Assembly (NCBI RefSeq): GCF_021190955.1
Contig: NZ_JAIOAO010000002.1
Location: 930,001-994,000 of the forward strand
DNA from: Parachryseolinea silvisoli
GTDB taxonomy: Bacteria > Bacteroidota > Bacteroidia > Cytophagales > Cyclobacteriaceae
DNA length: 64,000 bases
Direction of reading: 5' to 3'
The position numbers and the translations under genes are program-made. The notes under the pieces are model-generated. The model saw nothing but the letters and a program-made list of their open reading frames with translations, had not been told where the DNA came from and ran no database searches. Position 1 is the first letter of the stretch. Each line of letters begins with the position of its first letter. Positions 36,835-62,716 of the stretch are shown one piece after another.

Positions 36835-36846
36835 AGTTAAAGTGAA

Positions 36847-36919
36847 TAGCCCCGGCAAGAATCGAACTTGCACCACAAGGTCCGCATCCTTGTATCCTGA
36901 TCCATTAGACGACGGGGCA
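36847..36919 (-). tRNA. tRNA-Arg (anticodon GCG)
   Basis: A 73-nt cloverleaf on the minus strand. The anticodon stem CAAGG/CCTTG encloses the loop ATGCGGA, giving anticodon GCG for Arg CGC/CGU codons. The D stem is GTCT/GGAT, and the T arm is GCAAG-TTCGATT-CTTGC. Six acceptor pairs are perfect, but position 1:72 is U-U. CCA is not encoded. A GCG anticodon would not need the A34-to-inosine deaminase that ACG tRNA-Arg requires. Confidence 0.85.
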
Positions 36920-36955
36920 ATGAGAGAGTGTGAGTGTGGGCGTGAGAGCGAAGAA

Positions 36956-37003: not shown

Positions 37004-37006
37004 TAG

Positions 37007-37082
37007 TAGGGTAACCCGGATTCGAACCGGGGAGCTCCTGCGTCCAAGGCAGGCGAGGACGGCCTGACTCCTCCATTACCCT
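37007..37082 (-). tRNA. tRNA-Pro (anticodon UGG)
   Basis: A 76-nt cloverleaf. The acceptor AGGGTAA pairs fully with TTACCCT, the D stem is GAGG/CCTC, the anticodon stem CCTGC/GCAGG has loop CTTGGAC (anticodon TGG), and the T arm is CCCGG-TTCGAAT-CCGGG, with A73. The A1-U72 first pair differs from the usual C1-G72 of bacterial tRNA-Pro. CCA not encoded. Probably co-transcribed with tRNA-Arg 87 bp downstream. Confidence 0.9.
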
Positions 37083-37095
37083 ATGTATTAAAAAT

Positions 37096-37125
37096 AAAAA
37101 AGCCTCCCGTTAGAGGAGGCTTTTT
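37096..37125. terminator. Bidirectional intrinsic terminator
   Basis: AGCCTCC (37101-37107) and GGAGGCT (37115-37121) flanked by A and T runs. On the minus strand it directly follows the gene remnant ending at 37144. Confidence 0.8.
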
Positions 37126-37143: not shown

Positions 37144-37251
37144 TTACAATGTCATTGATCCAGTATACACAATAGTGTAGCCTCCCGGTCCGGTAGAAAG
37201 GGTCGGCGCGGTTGACGTACGATATGTATATTGGTTGTTTTCATGATTCAA
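37144..37251 (-). pseudogene. 3'-terminal remnant of a beta-rich protein gene
   Basis: A 35-codon open stretch that starts after a TAG and has no usable start codon. Its end reads TAPTLSTGPGGYTIVYTGSMTL then stop, which resembles the last beta strands of a secreted protein, and it is followed by an intrinsic terminator. Probably the surviving 3' end of a deleted gene; too short to name the family. Confidence 0.35.
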
Positions 37252-37297: not shown

Positions 37298-37663
37298 TTA
37301 TTCTGCTGTTTTTTTTATTCCTAATTTTTCCACGGCATCACTAAGCGTTGAAGCAAATACAACGGTATTACCCCGATTGCTTTCGCGAACAAAATCGTGG
37401 AGGCTTTTGCTGGTGTAGTGTGTGAAGTCGCCAATGATTGCCATACGCCGTGAGTAGTTTACAACTTTTTGCAGAATTTCACCGGCTAGTCCGCTGCGGA
37501 GATCGAAGAATGAGTCGTGCAGCGTCGCCTGGTGGACGACGATGACGTCGGCTGGTAAATTCATCATGGCTTCCAGGAACTCCTGGGCGCTTTGGATCAC
37601 TGGATTGTCGGTCGATATTTCAGCGACAGGTTCGCGATGATCAATGTGCAATACGTGGTTCAT
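37298..37663 (-). CDS. DUF4180 family protein
   Basis: A 121-residue cytosolic protein matching DUF4180: VIQSAQEFLEAMMNLPADVIVVHQATLHDSFFDLRSGLAGEILQK-type core (residues ~22-66) and MAIIGDFTHYTSKSLHDFVRESNRG towards the C-terminus. Function unknown, sometimes called a stage II sporulation-like STAS relative. It stands alone among gene remnants, with its own upstream region at 37664-37690. Confidence 0.85.
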   Translation of the reverse strand: MNHVLHIDHREPVAEISTDNPVIQSAQEFLEAMMNLPADVIVVHQATLHDSFFDLRSGLAGEILQKVVNYSRRMAIIGDFTHYTSKSLHDFVRESNRGNTVVFASTLSDAVEKLGIKKTAE

Positions 37664-37688: not shown

Positions 37689-37771
37689 TGTGGCGCGGAG
37701 GGCTTTAACCTCGATCTTCCACTCCGTAGTGTAAGTGGACGCATTTTTCAGCGACTATGCTATCGCGCCAC
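37689..37771 (-). tRNA. Decayed tRNA-Val-like element
   Basis: An 83-nt minus-strand element with a perfect 7-bp acceptor stem GTGGCGC/GCGCCAC and A at the discriminator position. A CTTACAC segment has the form of a Val(UAC) anticodon loop, but about 7 extra bases precede the 3' half of the anticodon stem. The T arm is reduced to GAGG-TTAAAGC-CCTC, lacking the TTCGA consensus. The D arm TAGC/GCTG has no GG. Best read as a tRNA pseudogene. Confidence 0.4.
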
Positions 37772-37834
37772 CGGCATAACCTAAGCGCTGGATATAATTA
37801 CCCAGGCATACGGGCTGCCCTATGTGGAGATTTC

Positions 37835-37880
37835 TGGTAACGCTCCAGTCCGTCCCGTCCCGATTGCTATCGGATTAACG
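37835..37880. repeat. Nested palindrome TCCCGT...CCGAT/ATCGG...ACGGGA
   Basis: TCCCGT and ACGGGA enclose CCGAT-tgct-ATCGG. The core resembles the TCCCGA/TCGGGA palindromes at 54501-54516 and 54640-54656, suggesting a dispersed REP-like family. Confidence 0.5.
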
Positions 37881-37930
37881 GGATGCTTCTACTTAGTTAG
37901 CTTAATCCCCATTTAAAACTGCTGCAAACA

Positions 37931-37962
37931 AAAAAGCCCCGGGAGCAGTACCCGGGGCTTTT
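37931..37962. terminator. Bidirectional intrinsic terminator
   Basis: AAAAAGCCCCGGG pairs with CCCGGGGCTTTT around AGCAGTA. On the minus strand it follows the gene remnant ending at 37987. Confidence 0.85.
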
Positions 37963-37986: not shown

Positions 37987-38109
37987 CTACAATAAATAGT
38001 ATTTCCCCGAATGGGCATGACAATCCGCAAAGTCGCAGCTGCTGTTGAATCGCAGTTCGATTGCTAAGATGTTGTTACCCGGTTTCATACTCGTGTTAGC
38101 GCTGTTATC
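37987..38109 (-). pseudogene. 3'-terminal remnant with galactose-binding-like (jelly-roll) motif
   Basis: A 40-codon open stretch bounded upstream by TAA. It reads DNSANTSMKPGNNILAIELR then continues to a Cys/His-rich end (CDFADCHAHSG). The x-x-K-P-G-x-N-x-L-A-I-E pattern is the conserved penultimate strand of galactose-binding-like domains in secreted Bacteroidota enzymes. A 33-codon ORF could start at the internal ATG (38088), but the sequence resembles the end of a large protein. It is followed by an intact terminator. Probably left by a deletion. Confidence 0.5.
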
Positions 38110-54451: not shown

Positions 54452-54538
54452 TCGGAGAGGGGAGAATCGAATACCCAAGGCCTAAGCGCCGCTTTTACAG
54501 TCCCGACTTGTCGGGATCCACTTACGATCTACTCTCCG
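54452..54538 (-). tRNA. tRNA-like element A (Tyr-like, aberrant anticodon arm)
   Basis: An 87-nt minus-strand element of class II tRNA length. The acceptor stem CGGAGAG/CTCTCCG is perfect, with U8, A9 and A73. The D arm is GATC-GTAAGTG-GATC. A CTGTAAAA segment looks like a Tyr(GUA) anticodon loop, but a TCCCGAC-TT-GTCGGGA palindrome (54501-54516 on the plus strand) occupies the place of the 5' anticodon stem, and no 5-bp stem with a 7-nt loop can be drawn. The T loop TTCGATT is normal but two of five T-stem pairs are broken (GGGTA/CTCCC). Confidence 0.45.
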
Positions 54539-54546
54539 ATATATAG

Positions 54547-54623
54547 TCGAGGTGGTTGGAGTCGAACCAACGTGCAACCAGCTACGGTTCCGACACGGTA
54601 TAAGCGTGAGCCGATACACCTCG
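54547..54623 (-). tRNA. tRNA-like element B (acceptor and T arm intact, no anticodon)
   Basis: 77 nt on the minus strand. The acceptor CGAGGTG/CACCTCG and T arm GTTGG-TTCGACT-CCAAC are perfect, the variable region is 5 nt, and position 73 is A. The D stem is reduced to CGG/CCG with a 12-nt loop lacking GG. The anticodon region offers only a weak stem with three G-U pairs and an 8-nt loop without U33. It would fold as an acceptor/T-arm minihelix rather than a decoding tRNA. Confidence 0.45.
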
Positions 54624-54630
54624 TATTTAG

Positions 54631-54706
54631 AGTCAGCGATCCCGACTCTGTCGGGATGAATATCTGCTTTGCAGGCAAACCCCTTAAACCTATTGGGTAC
54701 GCTGAC
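54631..54706 (-). tRNA. tRNA-like element C (Cys GCA, altered T arm)
   Basis: 76 nt on the minus strand. Acceptor GTCAGCG/CGCTGAC with U73, the tRNA-Cys discriminator. The D arm is CCC/GGG with a GG-containing loop, and the anticodon stem TTTGC/GCAGA holds loop CTGCAAA, giving GCA (Cys). The T stem ATCCC/GGGAT is present, but the loop is 9 nt, GACAGAGTC, able to extend the stem by three pairs and lacking the TTCGA consensus. Either a decayed or an unorthodox tRNA-Cys. Confidence 0.5.
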
Positions 54707-54775: not shown

Positions 54776-54806
54776 AAAAGCCCCAGGCGGAGGCCCAGGG
54801 CTTTTT
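54776..54806. terminator. Bidirectional intrinsic terminator
   Basis: AGCCC/GGGCT enclosing GGC/GCC, flanked by A and T runs. On the minus strand it lies 21 nt after the 48-codon ORF. Confidence 0.8.
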
Positions 54807-54826: not shown

Positions 54827-54973
54827 CTATATCATAACAATTTTTCCGGGCATGTCCATACCTTTTGCTGATAGCATATATGCTGATAACAGTTGTTGTT
54901 CGATATGATGTGACCCGTTTTCATTTTTGAATTGCTGATACAAAGATAAAGTAACTTTTTTTCGATAAGACAA
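54827..54973 (-). CDS. 48-residue small protein, TTG start
   Basis: An open frame of 48 codons that must start at TTG (54971-54973), as no ATG is available before the middle. The translated sequence is protein-like: SYRKKVTLSLYQQF, then ENGSHHIEQQLLSAYMLS and an end AKGMDMPGKIVMI. An exact TATCTTTG box occurs inside the frame (about 54941-54948), so a shorter transcript is also possible. An intrinsic terminator follows directly. It may be a genuine small protein or the 3' end of a lost gene. It was not assigned to a family. Confidence 0.45.
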   Translation of the reverse strand: MSYRKKVTLSLYQQFKNENGSHHIEQQLLSAYMLSAKGMDMPGKIVMI

Positions 54974-61309: not shown

Positions 61310-62716
61310 ATGTTATTGACCATTACAACAACGCGCACACCCGCAACCGATCTTAGCTATTTGCTGCACAAACATCCAGGGAAGCTACAAGCCGTGGAGC
61401 TGTCGCAAGGAGTTGCCCACATTTTTTATCCACACGCGGACGACGACAAATGCACGGTTGCCCTACTGTTAGATATCGATCCGATTGGCCTGGTCAGGAA
61501 ATCGGGCGAGGGTGGGCCGGACTCCTTTACACTGGGGCACTATGTAAACGACAGGCCGTATGTAGCATCCTCCTTTATGAGTGTAGCCATTGCCAGGGCT
61601 TTTTCCACGGCCATGAATGGCACGTGCCAGAAACGCCCCGAGCTGGTGGATGTAACGATGCCTTTTGAGGTGACTATTTCCGTTCTGTCTGCCGCCAGGG
61701 GCGGCGAGCTCCTAATCAGACGGCTGTTCGAGCCGCTTGGCTACGCCGTTACAGTAGAACAGTATGTCCTGGACGATAATTTTCCGGAATGGGGTCAGAG
61801 TAAATATTTTACGGTGACCCTGAAGGCCGACCTGAAGTTAAAAGATTTATTGTCTCATGTATATGTATTAATTCCTGTGTTGGACAATGAAAAGCATTAC
61901 TGGGTTAGTCAGCAGGAAGTTGAAAAGCTCTTGCAAAAAGGCGAGCGCTGGTTGCGAGATCATACGGAGAAGGAGCAGATCATTAAACGGTATTTACGAA
62001 ATATAGGGGGCCTGGCAAAAAATGCCCTGGCCCGGTTGACGGATGATGCACCTGAAGGAAGCGCGCATGACGATGGCGAACGGGATATTGCTAAAGAGAA
62101 GCTTCATGATAAGCGGTTGAAAGTCGTACTGGATGAATTGGTGTCGTCTGGTAGCAATACCGTCGTTGACCTGGGATGTGGCGAAGGCAAGCTGCTGAAG
62201 ATGCTGCTACGGGAAAAGCAGTTCAAAAAAATTCTCGGTGTTGATGTTTCGTATCGTACGTTGGAAAAAGCGGCCCGCCGTCTTGTCTTTGATGAGATGC
62301 CACCGAAGCAAAAGGAGCGGATTGAGATCATGCAAGGGGCGCTTACCTATCGCGACAAGCGATTGGTGGGCTTTGATGCTGCCGCTATTGTGGAGGTTAT
62401 CGAACACCTGGACCTGAATCGCTTGAAAGCCTTTGAACGCGTTGTCTTCGAGTTTGCAAAACCTGGGACAGTGGTGTTAACAACACCCAACCGCGAGTAC
62501 AACGAACTTTTTGAAACGATGGAGGCGGGAACCATGCGACACACGGACCACCGGTTTGAATGGACAAGAGTCGAATTTGAAACCTGGGCGACAGACGTTG
62601 CGAAGAGAAACAACTATAGTGTATCGTTTAAGCCGGTTGGCGATGTCCATGAACGGGTTGGCGCTCCCACACAGATGGCAATTTTTAAAAGAAAAGTTGA
62701 TGGAAACGAGGAGTAA
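61310..62716 (+). CDS. hen1: 3'-terminal RNA ribose 2'-O-methyltransferase Hen1
   Basis: A 468-residue RNA repair methyltransferase. The N-terminal half (1-250) is the bacterial Hen1-specific domain (TRTPATDLSYLLHKHPGK, VALLLDIDPIGLVR, PEWGQSKYFTVTLKA). The C-terminal methyltransferase has motif I VVDLGCGEGKLLKML near 285-299 and the metal-binding VEVIEHLD near 361-368. In Pnkp/Hen1 systems it adds a 2'-O-methyl group at the 3' end of cleaved RNA, so the mended RNA is immune to repeat cleavage. It overlaps pnkP by 17 bp, ensuring coupled translation. Confidence 0.95.
   Translation: MLLTITTTRTPATDLSYLLHKHPGKLQAVELSQGVAHIFYPHADDDKCTVALLLDIDPIGLVRKSGEGGPDSFTLGHYVNDRPYVASSFMSVAIARAFSTAMNGTCQKRPELVDVTMPFEVTISVLSAARGGELLIRRLFEPLGYAVTVEQYVLDDNFPEWGQSKYFTVTLKADLKLKDLLSHVYVLIPVLDNEKHYWVSQQEVEKLLQKGERWLRDHTEKEQIIKRYLRNIGGLAKNALARLTDDAPEGSAHDDGERDIAKEKLHDKRLKVVLDELVSSGSNTVVDLGCGEGKLLKMLLREKQFKKILGVDVSYRTLEKAARRLVFDEMPPKQKERIEIMQGALTYRDKRLVGFDAAAIVEVIEHLDLNRLKAFERVVFEFAKPGTVVLTTPNREYNELFETMEAGTMRHTDHRFEWTRVEFETWATDVAKRNNYSVSFKPVGDVHERVGAPTQMAIFKRKVDGNEE

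Follow-up and report, generated by a model that had tools for sequence, protein, structure and literature searches.

The window analysed here is a stretch of 64,000 nucleotides (G000:C6:930001-994000) from the 7.95-Mb genome G000. On its minus strand lie three tandem tRNA-like elements, transcribed in the order C (54631..54706, 76 nt), B (54547..54623, 77 nt) and A (54452..54538, 87 nt). Their tRNA sizes, 7-bp acceptor stems and spacers of 7-8 nt, as described in the first-pass annotation, were all borne out on the minus strand. Comparison with homologues identified C as a tRNA-Cys(GCA) in which a palindrome replaces the T arm and A as a tRNA-Tyr(GUA) in which a palindrome replaces a stretch of the D arm and anticodon stem. 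Element B is a conserved tRNA-like RNA without a recognisable D arm, carrying the loop CUUAUAC (UAU) and a long variable region. In the Infernal check that had been proposed, C (33.2 bits) and B (29.1 bits) exceeded the gathering cut-off of 29 for the Rfam tRNA model RF00005, but A was not reported at that cut-off; ARAGORN called none of the three as a complete cloverleaf. Among the 46 tRNA-family matches of the genome, 43 lay outside the window, and the 42 of these called by ARAGORN formed a full housekeeping set besides the window arrays, Pro and Arg tRNAs included. Since ordinary Cys(GCA) and Tyr(GUA) tRNAs, whose presence had been suggested as a check, were among these calls, A, B and C are extras.

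A search with the 341-nt region found homologues in 8 of 39 genomes, the own genome counted, so that the locus is conserved and chance similarity of the elements was ruled out. Against chance similarity, too, B scored 98-106 bits in 5 of 148 genomes of the family, with the other matches listed at no more than 37.6 bits; eight of nine scanned loci among those lower-scoring matches were ordinary tRNA-Pro. An origin from phages or plasmids was likewise rejected, as a query with the array of the related genome G150, in a search outside IMG/VR, gave only matches of 55-143 nt, in eight phage and two plasmid records.

Beyond the elements first noticed, the C-B-A array proved to be preceded by a leader ORF and a terminator, and the window was found to hold three such units of leader ORF, intrinsic terminator and tRNA or tRNA-like elements, all on the minus strand. 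The C-B-A unit starts with a promoter-like -7 box read from the sequence (TATCTTTG, 54941..54948), which we take to be of the TAnnTTTG promoter type. The leader ORF follows (MKTGHIISNNNCYQHICYQQKVWTCPEKLL and a stop codon, 54832..54924), containing three Cys and two Tyr codons and having a homologous leader in G002. An intrinsic terminator hairpin (54776..54805, -20.4 kcal/mol) begins 26 nt past the leader stop codon, in the gap between the leader and the tRNA elements. The second unit comprises a leader ORF with three Pro and four Arg codons (MKTTNIHIVRQPRRPFLPDREATLLCILDQ, 37152..37244), a terminator (37097..37125) whose 5' arm can pair with the leader segment CGGGAGGCTA, a tRNA-Pro(UGG) (37006..37082) and a tRNA-Arg(GCG) (36846..36920), both tRNAs being found by ARAGORN and Rfam. 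The other Arg tRNAs called in the genome have the anticodons ACG, CCG, UCU and CCU, and the spare tRNA-Arg(GCG) therefore differs in the wobble base.

In the third unit, a leader ORF (MKPGNNILAIELRFNSSCDFADCHAHSGKYYLL, 37987..38088), which like the second G242b leader and the first G824 leader enters none of the statistics below, is followed by a terminator (37933..37961) and two elements. Element W (37826..37910) is a tRNA-Phe-like remnant in which nested palindromes occupy the position expected for the anticodon arm, its Phe-like assignment coming from a reading of homologues and from a Phe(GAA) call in G216; element V (37690..37771) is a conserved tRNA-like RNA. A DUF4180 gene (37298..37663, minus strand) separates the third unit from the second. 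As a DUF4180 gene likewise sits between the two arrays of G150, these two window units seem to recall the larger G150 block.

The palindrome TCCCGAC/GTCGGGA, noticed earlier in A and C, is indeed present in both. A search of the 7.95 Mb for the exact pattern TCCCGAC-N1..6-GTCGGGA, looser variants not being counted, returned seven places, two of which are A and C, and the pattern read backwards occurred at none; the exact palindrome is rare in this genome. Its placement in the anticodon arm of A was correct in part: it takes the place of two stem sides, the 3' one of the D arm and the 5' one of the anticodon stem. The description of C as a Cys(GCA) tRNA with a palindrome-like T loop agreed with three relatives whose T arm is normal at the position of ATCCCGACAGAGTCGGGAT in C. 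The identity of A as tRNA-Tyr follows from intact relatives, namely the undamaged copies in G150, in G006 and on contig C8 of the own genome. In G000, G002 and G021 three different palindromes stand in for one and the same stretch of tRNA-Tyr, reaching from the D arm (3' side) to the anticodon stem (5' side), and a tRNA-Ile that is intact in G150 carries palindromes at the D loop and at the T loop in G021. Such intact and invaded pairs of tRNA-Cys, tRNA-Tyr and tRNA-Ile support the suggestion that a REP-like sequence invaded tRNA genes. REP-type repeats and the Rickettsia palindromic elements are short palindromes inserted into genes, including RNA genes; REP-type repeats have a high copy number between genes, from which the window palindrome seems to differ in its low copy number (seven places by the exact pattern) and in its location in the loops and arms of tRNA genes. 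Because C has lost its T loop and A its anticodon stem, both are probably unable to decode. In this strain, A and C have been altered by palindromic elements and probably no longer act as decoding tRNAs, and are most simply read as damaged members of a dispensable array. The insertions also represent natural experiments on which tRNA arms tolerate replacement.

Altered elements were also seen in arrays of other loci. Pro-like and His-like members are shortened by TCCCGATAGYTATCGGGA or TCCCGACAATTGTCGGGA palindromes (L015:11950-12170, L021:340-580), one His-like element of this set being reduced to acceptor, palindrome and T arm. A tRNA-like element with the acceptor ACACCCG..GGGTG and a T arm (L015:11140-11235, L016:9765-9845, L072:3630-3710) has its anticodon arm replaced by a long hairpin of varying sequence. 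The T loops ATCGTTA, ATCAATA or AGCGTTA occur instead of TTCGANT in an array tRNA-Lys and a Phe-like element (L072:3421-3491, L015:11409-11556).

Element B had been described as lacking any anticodon, which is doubtful: it carries a 7-nt loop, CUUAUAC, on a CACG/CGUG stem, identical to the loop of an ARAGORN-called tRNA-Ile(UAU) in G144, and what it lacks is a recognisable D arm. B was present in eight genomes of three genera with a mean column identity of 92%. Its model structure, consisting of the acceptor, a 4-bp stem with the loop, a 3-bp variable stem and the T arm, was paired in all 133 cells of the seven distinct sequences, among which three pairs had changed on both sides. Of 500 shuffles, none reached the covariation score, and 44 reached the number of pairs changed on both sides. 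B gives the impression of a conserved RNA and not of one in decay; we propose that it stays under selection for structure, and it may be a working D-armless tRNA-Ile(UAU). AUA occupies one aligned codon in seven of the eight leaders of B-containing arrays, which is only suggestive of B as an AUA reader because AUA was also found in other leaders.

These data bear on the possibility of plain decay, in which A, B and C would be functionless pseudogenes, left over from an abandoned tRNA array that palindromic repeats have invaded. The ordinary Cys and Tyr tRNAs elsewhere, the absence of an ARAGORN call for all three elements, the loss of the T arm in C and of the 5' anticodon stem in A, and a Thg1 gene that adjoins the array in G002 but was not found in the window's genome all favour such decay. 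It is nevertheless doubtful as an account of the locus, given that B has been kept in eight genomes of three genera with fully paired stems and some compensatory changes, that the leader and terminator persist, that palindromes lie at the same tRNA-Tyr site in three genomes, and that the second window unit holds two intact extra tRNAs. According to the first-pass annotation, ordinary tRNAs elsewhere together with a lack of both expression and conservation would reduce the elements to plain pseudogenes; the ordinary tRNAs exist, but the locus is conserved, along with its leader and terminator, so the label fails for the locus as a whole and may fit A and C.

The arrangement of leader ORF, terminator and tRNA array was found in families f1 and f5 of the window's order and in family f25 of its class; in G426, a member of one more family in this order, leader-terminator units arranged in tandem stand ahead of an array-bearing island. 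Arrays in relatives share one order: often a TAnnTTTG-like promoter box, next a leader ORF (17-45 codons), then an intrinsic terminator and finally the tRNAs. A terminator was found by rule for 22 of 23 leaders, the exception being G021b, where a terminator-like sequence was missed by the rule. The distance from leader stop codon to terminator was 18-50 nt, and 21-27 nt in 17 of the 22. Among ordinary tRNA arrays used as a control, a terminator with an ORF ahead of it occurred in 1 of 16 (14 loci).

The leaders are spelled with codons for the tRNAs encoded downstream. Ahead of the Pro and Arg tRNAs in the second window unit, the leader reads VRQPRRPFLPDR; RHSHSSYRQPQP is found in related leaders before Pro/Tyr/Gln/His/Arg/Ser arrays, and CYQHICYQQKVWTC in the leader before Cys and Tyr. 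The leader of the Cys-only unit in G154 contains three Cys codons and no Tyr codon. In another family, HRPQQPRR occurs in the leader of G216, whose array has Pro, Gln, His and Arg tRNAs; in G242, where no tRNA-Pro lies between the terminator and tRNA-Gln, the leader has HRQHQLRR and no Pro codon. When codons were matched to array isotypes, frame 0 was the best in 19 of 21 leaders, and the mean z was 2.58 in frame, 0.55 and -0.01 in the other two frames and 0.67 in antisense, with generic background amino-acid frequencies, which also served for the permutations and for family f25. No match was found for the G144 leader (z 0.2) and weak ones for G021a (z 0.7) and G216b (z 1.2); the leaders of G144 and of the C8 unit of G000 matched better out of frame.

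Leaders sharing a lineage do not count as independent, part of the isotypes are hand assignments, and occasionally one of several ORFs was chosen. Arrays were permuted among leaders by lineage, with the f5 leaders as a lineage of their own. With ARAGORN isotypes only, across seven lineages, p ranged from 0.0002 to 0.0040 (median 0.0004) over 432 choices of representatives; win1 was missing from this test because ARAGORN calls nothing there. With hand-added isotypes and G006 left aside, the median p was 0.0002 and the maximum 0.0012 over 480 choices. In an earlier test with pooled leader composition, the rank was 4 of 5040 with a single set of seven representatives, and all 20 leader-array pairs, which are non-independent, gave 0 of 100000; G006 was included in both the ARAGORN-only and the pooled tests. 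G005, very like G003, was in no codon-match test, and G426, with two leaders in tandem, entered only the pairing test. Codons and tRNAs also tended to be lost together: across eight leaders of similar arrays, the codon was missing in 0 of 31 cells with the tRNA present versus 8 of 17 cells with the tRNA absent (member-shuffle p 0.0003), where damaged members were scored as present by hand and two f5 leaders, whose homology is possibly absent, were grouped with f1. The same test in the small Cys/Tyr group was not significant (p 0.17). Four close leader pairs showed no excess of third-position changes (10, 9 and 10 changes at positions 1, 2 and 3), which lends no support to a conserved peptide and neither proves nor excludes translation. 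Judged from these sequence comparisons, the leader codons match the tRNAs encoded downstream in a frame-specific and lineage-specific manner.

A control exerted by a repressor at the promoter alone, with the leader ORF incidental and the codon match a product of composition, was weighed against these results. A palindrome like GTTACC-N-GGTAAC, perhaps an operator, lies ahead of several leader promoters (L015:10760-10785, L072:4155-4175, L016:10845-10865, L019:9425-9445), and the Anabaena trn operon is under the repressor TrcR (PMC10272220). For the Cys/Tyr leader of the window, an upstream stretch of 75 nt contained no such palindrome. We regard repressor control without attenuation as improbable, since it leaves the frame and lineage specificity of the codon match, and its tracking of tRNA presence and absence, unaccounted for.

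Pairing of the leader with the 5' arm of the terminator was compared with shuffled sequences, giving a mean z of -1.45 over 22 units, of which seven stayed within the limit of 25 equally good shuffles in 500. Pairing was strongest in the Pro/Arg unit of the window (0 of 500), and in the Cys/Tyr unit that carries C, B and A the antiterminator pairing was no better than chance (82 of 500). Matched codons made up 171 of 366 codons upstream of the pairing stretch versus 33 of 121 from the stretch onward (15 leaders), these counts being non-independent and including hand-assigned isotypes.

The architecture was followed further in family f25, where a query with the G824 array matched 78 of 216 genomes, G824 included; from the best-scoring loci of these matching genomes, capped at 30 (L159-L188), the 29 besides G824 were taken. 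A terminator within 14 nt of tRNA-His was present in 29 of 29, and a leader was found by rule in 27, with L164 and L173 failing the rule. The leader is a conserved ORF of 34-45 codons before arrays of 5 to 17 called tRNAs that start with tRNA-His. Frame 0 was the best in 24 of the 27 leaders, in a codon test that preferred ORFs beginning like the known leader where several fitted; the pairing test, applied without that preference, gave at most 10 of 200 shuffles as good in 26 of 27. The f25 leaders sample most amino acids, Gly and Val too, though no f25 array has those tRNAs. Since these loci are homologous, their main value is as confirmation of the architecture, and less as independent evidence on codons.

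A link to the RNA-repair enzymes encoded near the ends of the window had also been suspected. It is supported in relatives, where arrays lie beside genes for RtcB, Thg1, RlaP, Ro60, RNA ligases and kinases; in the window itself, RtcB (149-1669) is about 53 kb and Hen1 (61310-62716) about 6 kb away from the C-B-A unit. The island by the G004 array encodes RlaP, Thg1, RtcB, a Band_7 protein, Ro60, a WYL regulator, a kinase-HD protein and an RNA ligase, that of G216 encodes RlaP, Thg1, Hen1 and a Pnkp ligase, and that of G426 encodes an RNA ligase, Ro60, Band_7 and RtcB. G002 shares synteny with the window and has a Thg1 gene ahead of its leader, and the unit on contig C8 of the window's genome consists of leader, terminator, tRNA-Tyr and RNA ligase. 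Neither Ro60 nor Thg1 was a reliable array marker, a leader with an array being found by rule in only 2 of 30 Ro60 loci and in 0 of 4 Thg1 loci. Relatives of the array-adjoining kinase-HD protein (57-59% identity) occur in Xenorhabdus genomes (L027-L038, L040); in these 13 loci, covering up to 10 kb on each side, ARAGORN called no tRNA. After the Ro60 gene, tRNA pieces are mixed with a repeated motif like GTCGTAGA..TACTTCG (L042:10600-11700, L015:6300-6700), which is perhaps Ro60-binding.

The repair setting suggests two further readings of the elements. They could be decoys or cleavage-proof mimics, with arms rebuilt so that anticodon nucleases or repair enzymes are bound but cleavage is escaped. 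The location of arrays in RNA-repair islands and the seemingly anticodon-less elements of some relatives would suit such a role, for which Hughes et al. can also be cited; we consider it unlikely, as many array members are ARAGORN tRNAs with normal anticodons, and palindromes also hit D and T loops, which a decoy would not need. Alternatively, A, B and C could be bacterial Y RNAs, partners of Ro60 (Rsr). Rsr and YrlA-like RNAs, the latter below the Rfam gathering score, occur in the islands, and the window's genome has an Rsr gene. Yet no YrlA (RF02553) match was found in the window at gathering, nor, with E values up to 0.5, any to the three elements in the locus containing them (L001), and A aligns with tRNA-Tyr and C with tRNA-Cys, which makes a Y RNA identity very improbable.

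Taken from the DNA, the architecture, the codon match, the conservation and co-variation, and the position of the pairing stretch suggest that A, B and C are probably the output of a facultative tRNA operon under ribosome-mediated transcription attenuation of the trp type, by which replacement tRNAs would be made upon tRNA loss. Because the leader is spelled with codons for the tRNAs that the operon itself encodes, the operon probably turns on spare tRNAs when these are scarce. Translation of the leader, stalling, antitermination and the signal are inferred as follows. The promoter would give a leader transcript with the short ORF, 17-45 codons in the compared units, which carries codons read by the downstream-encoded tRNAs, Cys and Tyr in the C-B-A unit; beyond these control codons would lie a stretch capable of pairing with the terminator's 5' arm. 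When the tRNAs are plentiful, a ribosome would reach the stop codon, the terminator would form and the array would stay off. When one tRNA is depleted, for example by an anticodon nuclease cut, the ribosome would stall on the leader, the leader stretch would engage the terminator arm in pairing, and transcription would go on into the replacement tRNAs, in some loci together with repair enzymes. That tRNA cleavage is the natural trigger is a guess drawn from the RNA-repair setting.

Leader-peptide attenuators are familiar from amino-acid operons such as trp and his. The His leader of hisS/hisZ in bacilli belongs to the same type, and the 2010 report on it states that leader-peptide systems had previously been shown only in Proteobacteria and Actinobacteria, to which it adds Firmicutes (PMC2965389). 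The units described here resemble these amino-acid attenuators in their short control-codon ORF, intrinsic terminator and candidate antiterminator pairing, but they would control tRNA genes, and because the control codons are those of the tRNAs made, the signal would be the loss of a tRNA and not of an amino acid. The trn operon of Anabaena PCC 7120 is likewise described as a spare tRNA array beyond the housekeeping set, off by default and on under translational stress; unlike the window units, it is controlled by the DNA-binding repressor TrcR, and the terms 'attenuation', 'leader' and 'terminator' are absent from the main text of that paper (PMC10272220). The rsr-yrlBA-rtcBA repair operon shares RtcB, Rsr, tRNA-like RNAs and the sensing of tRNA damage, but there RtcR controls the enzymes, as opposed to the codon-specific stalling proposed for the arrays (PMC7790460). 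Among open-licence papers, we recognised none on leader-peptide attenuation of tRNA arrays.

On a wider scale, we lean somewhat towards a tRNA reserve spread across a class of the Bacteroidota, in which an attenuator would stand before each array, its leader peptide would test the supply of the array tRNAs codon by codon and so allow the cell to remake missing ones, and the specificities of leader and array would be gained and lost together. Cleavage of particular tRNAs is how many defence systems and toxins kill. If the proposed attenuation is true, such cutting would be countered directly by a regulator that senses the identity of the missing tRNA and supplies a substitute. Leader-peptide attenuation would then reach beyond amino-acid genes to those of tRNAs, and the tRNAs whose loss a lineage anticipates could be read from the leader peptide.
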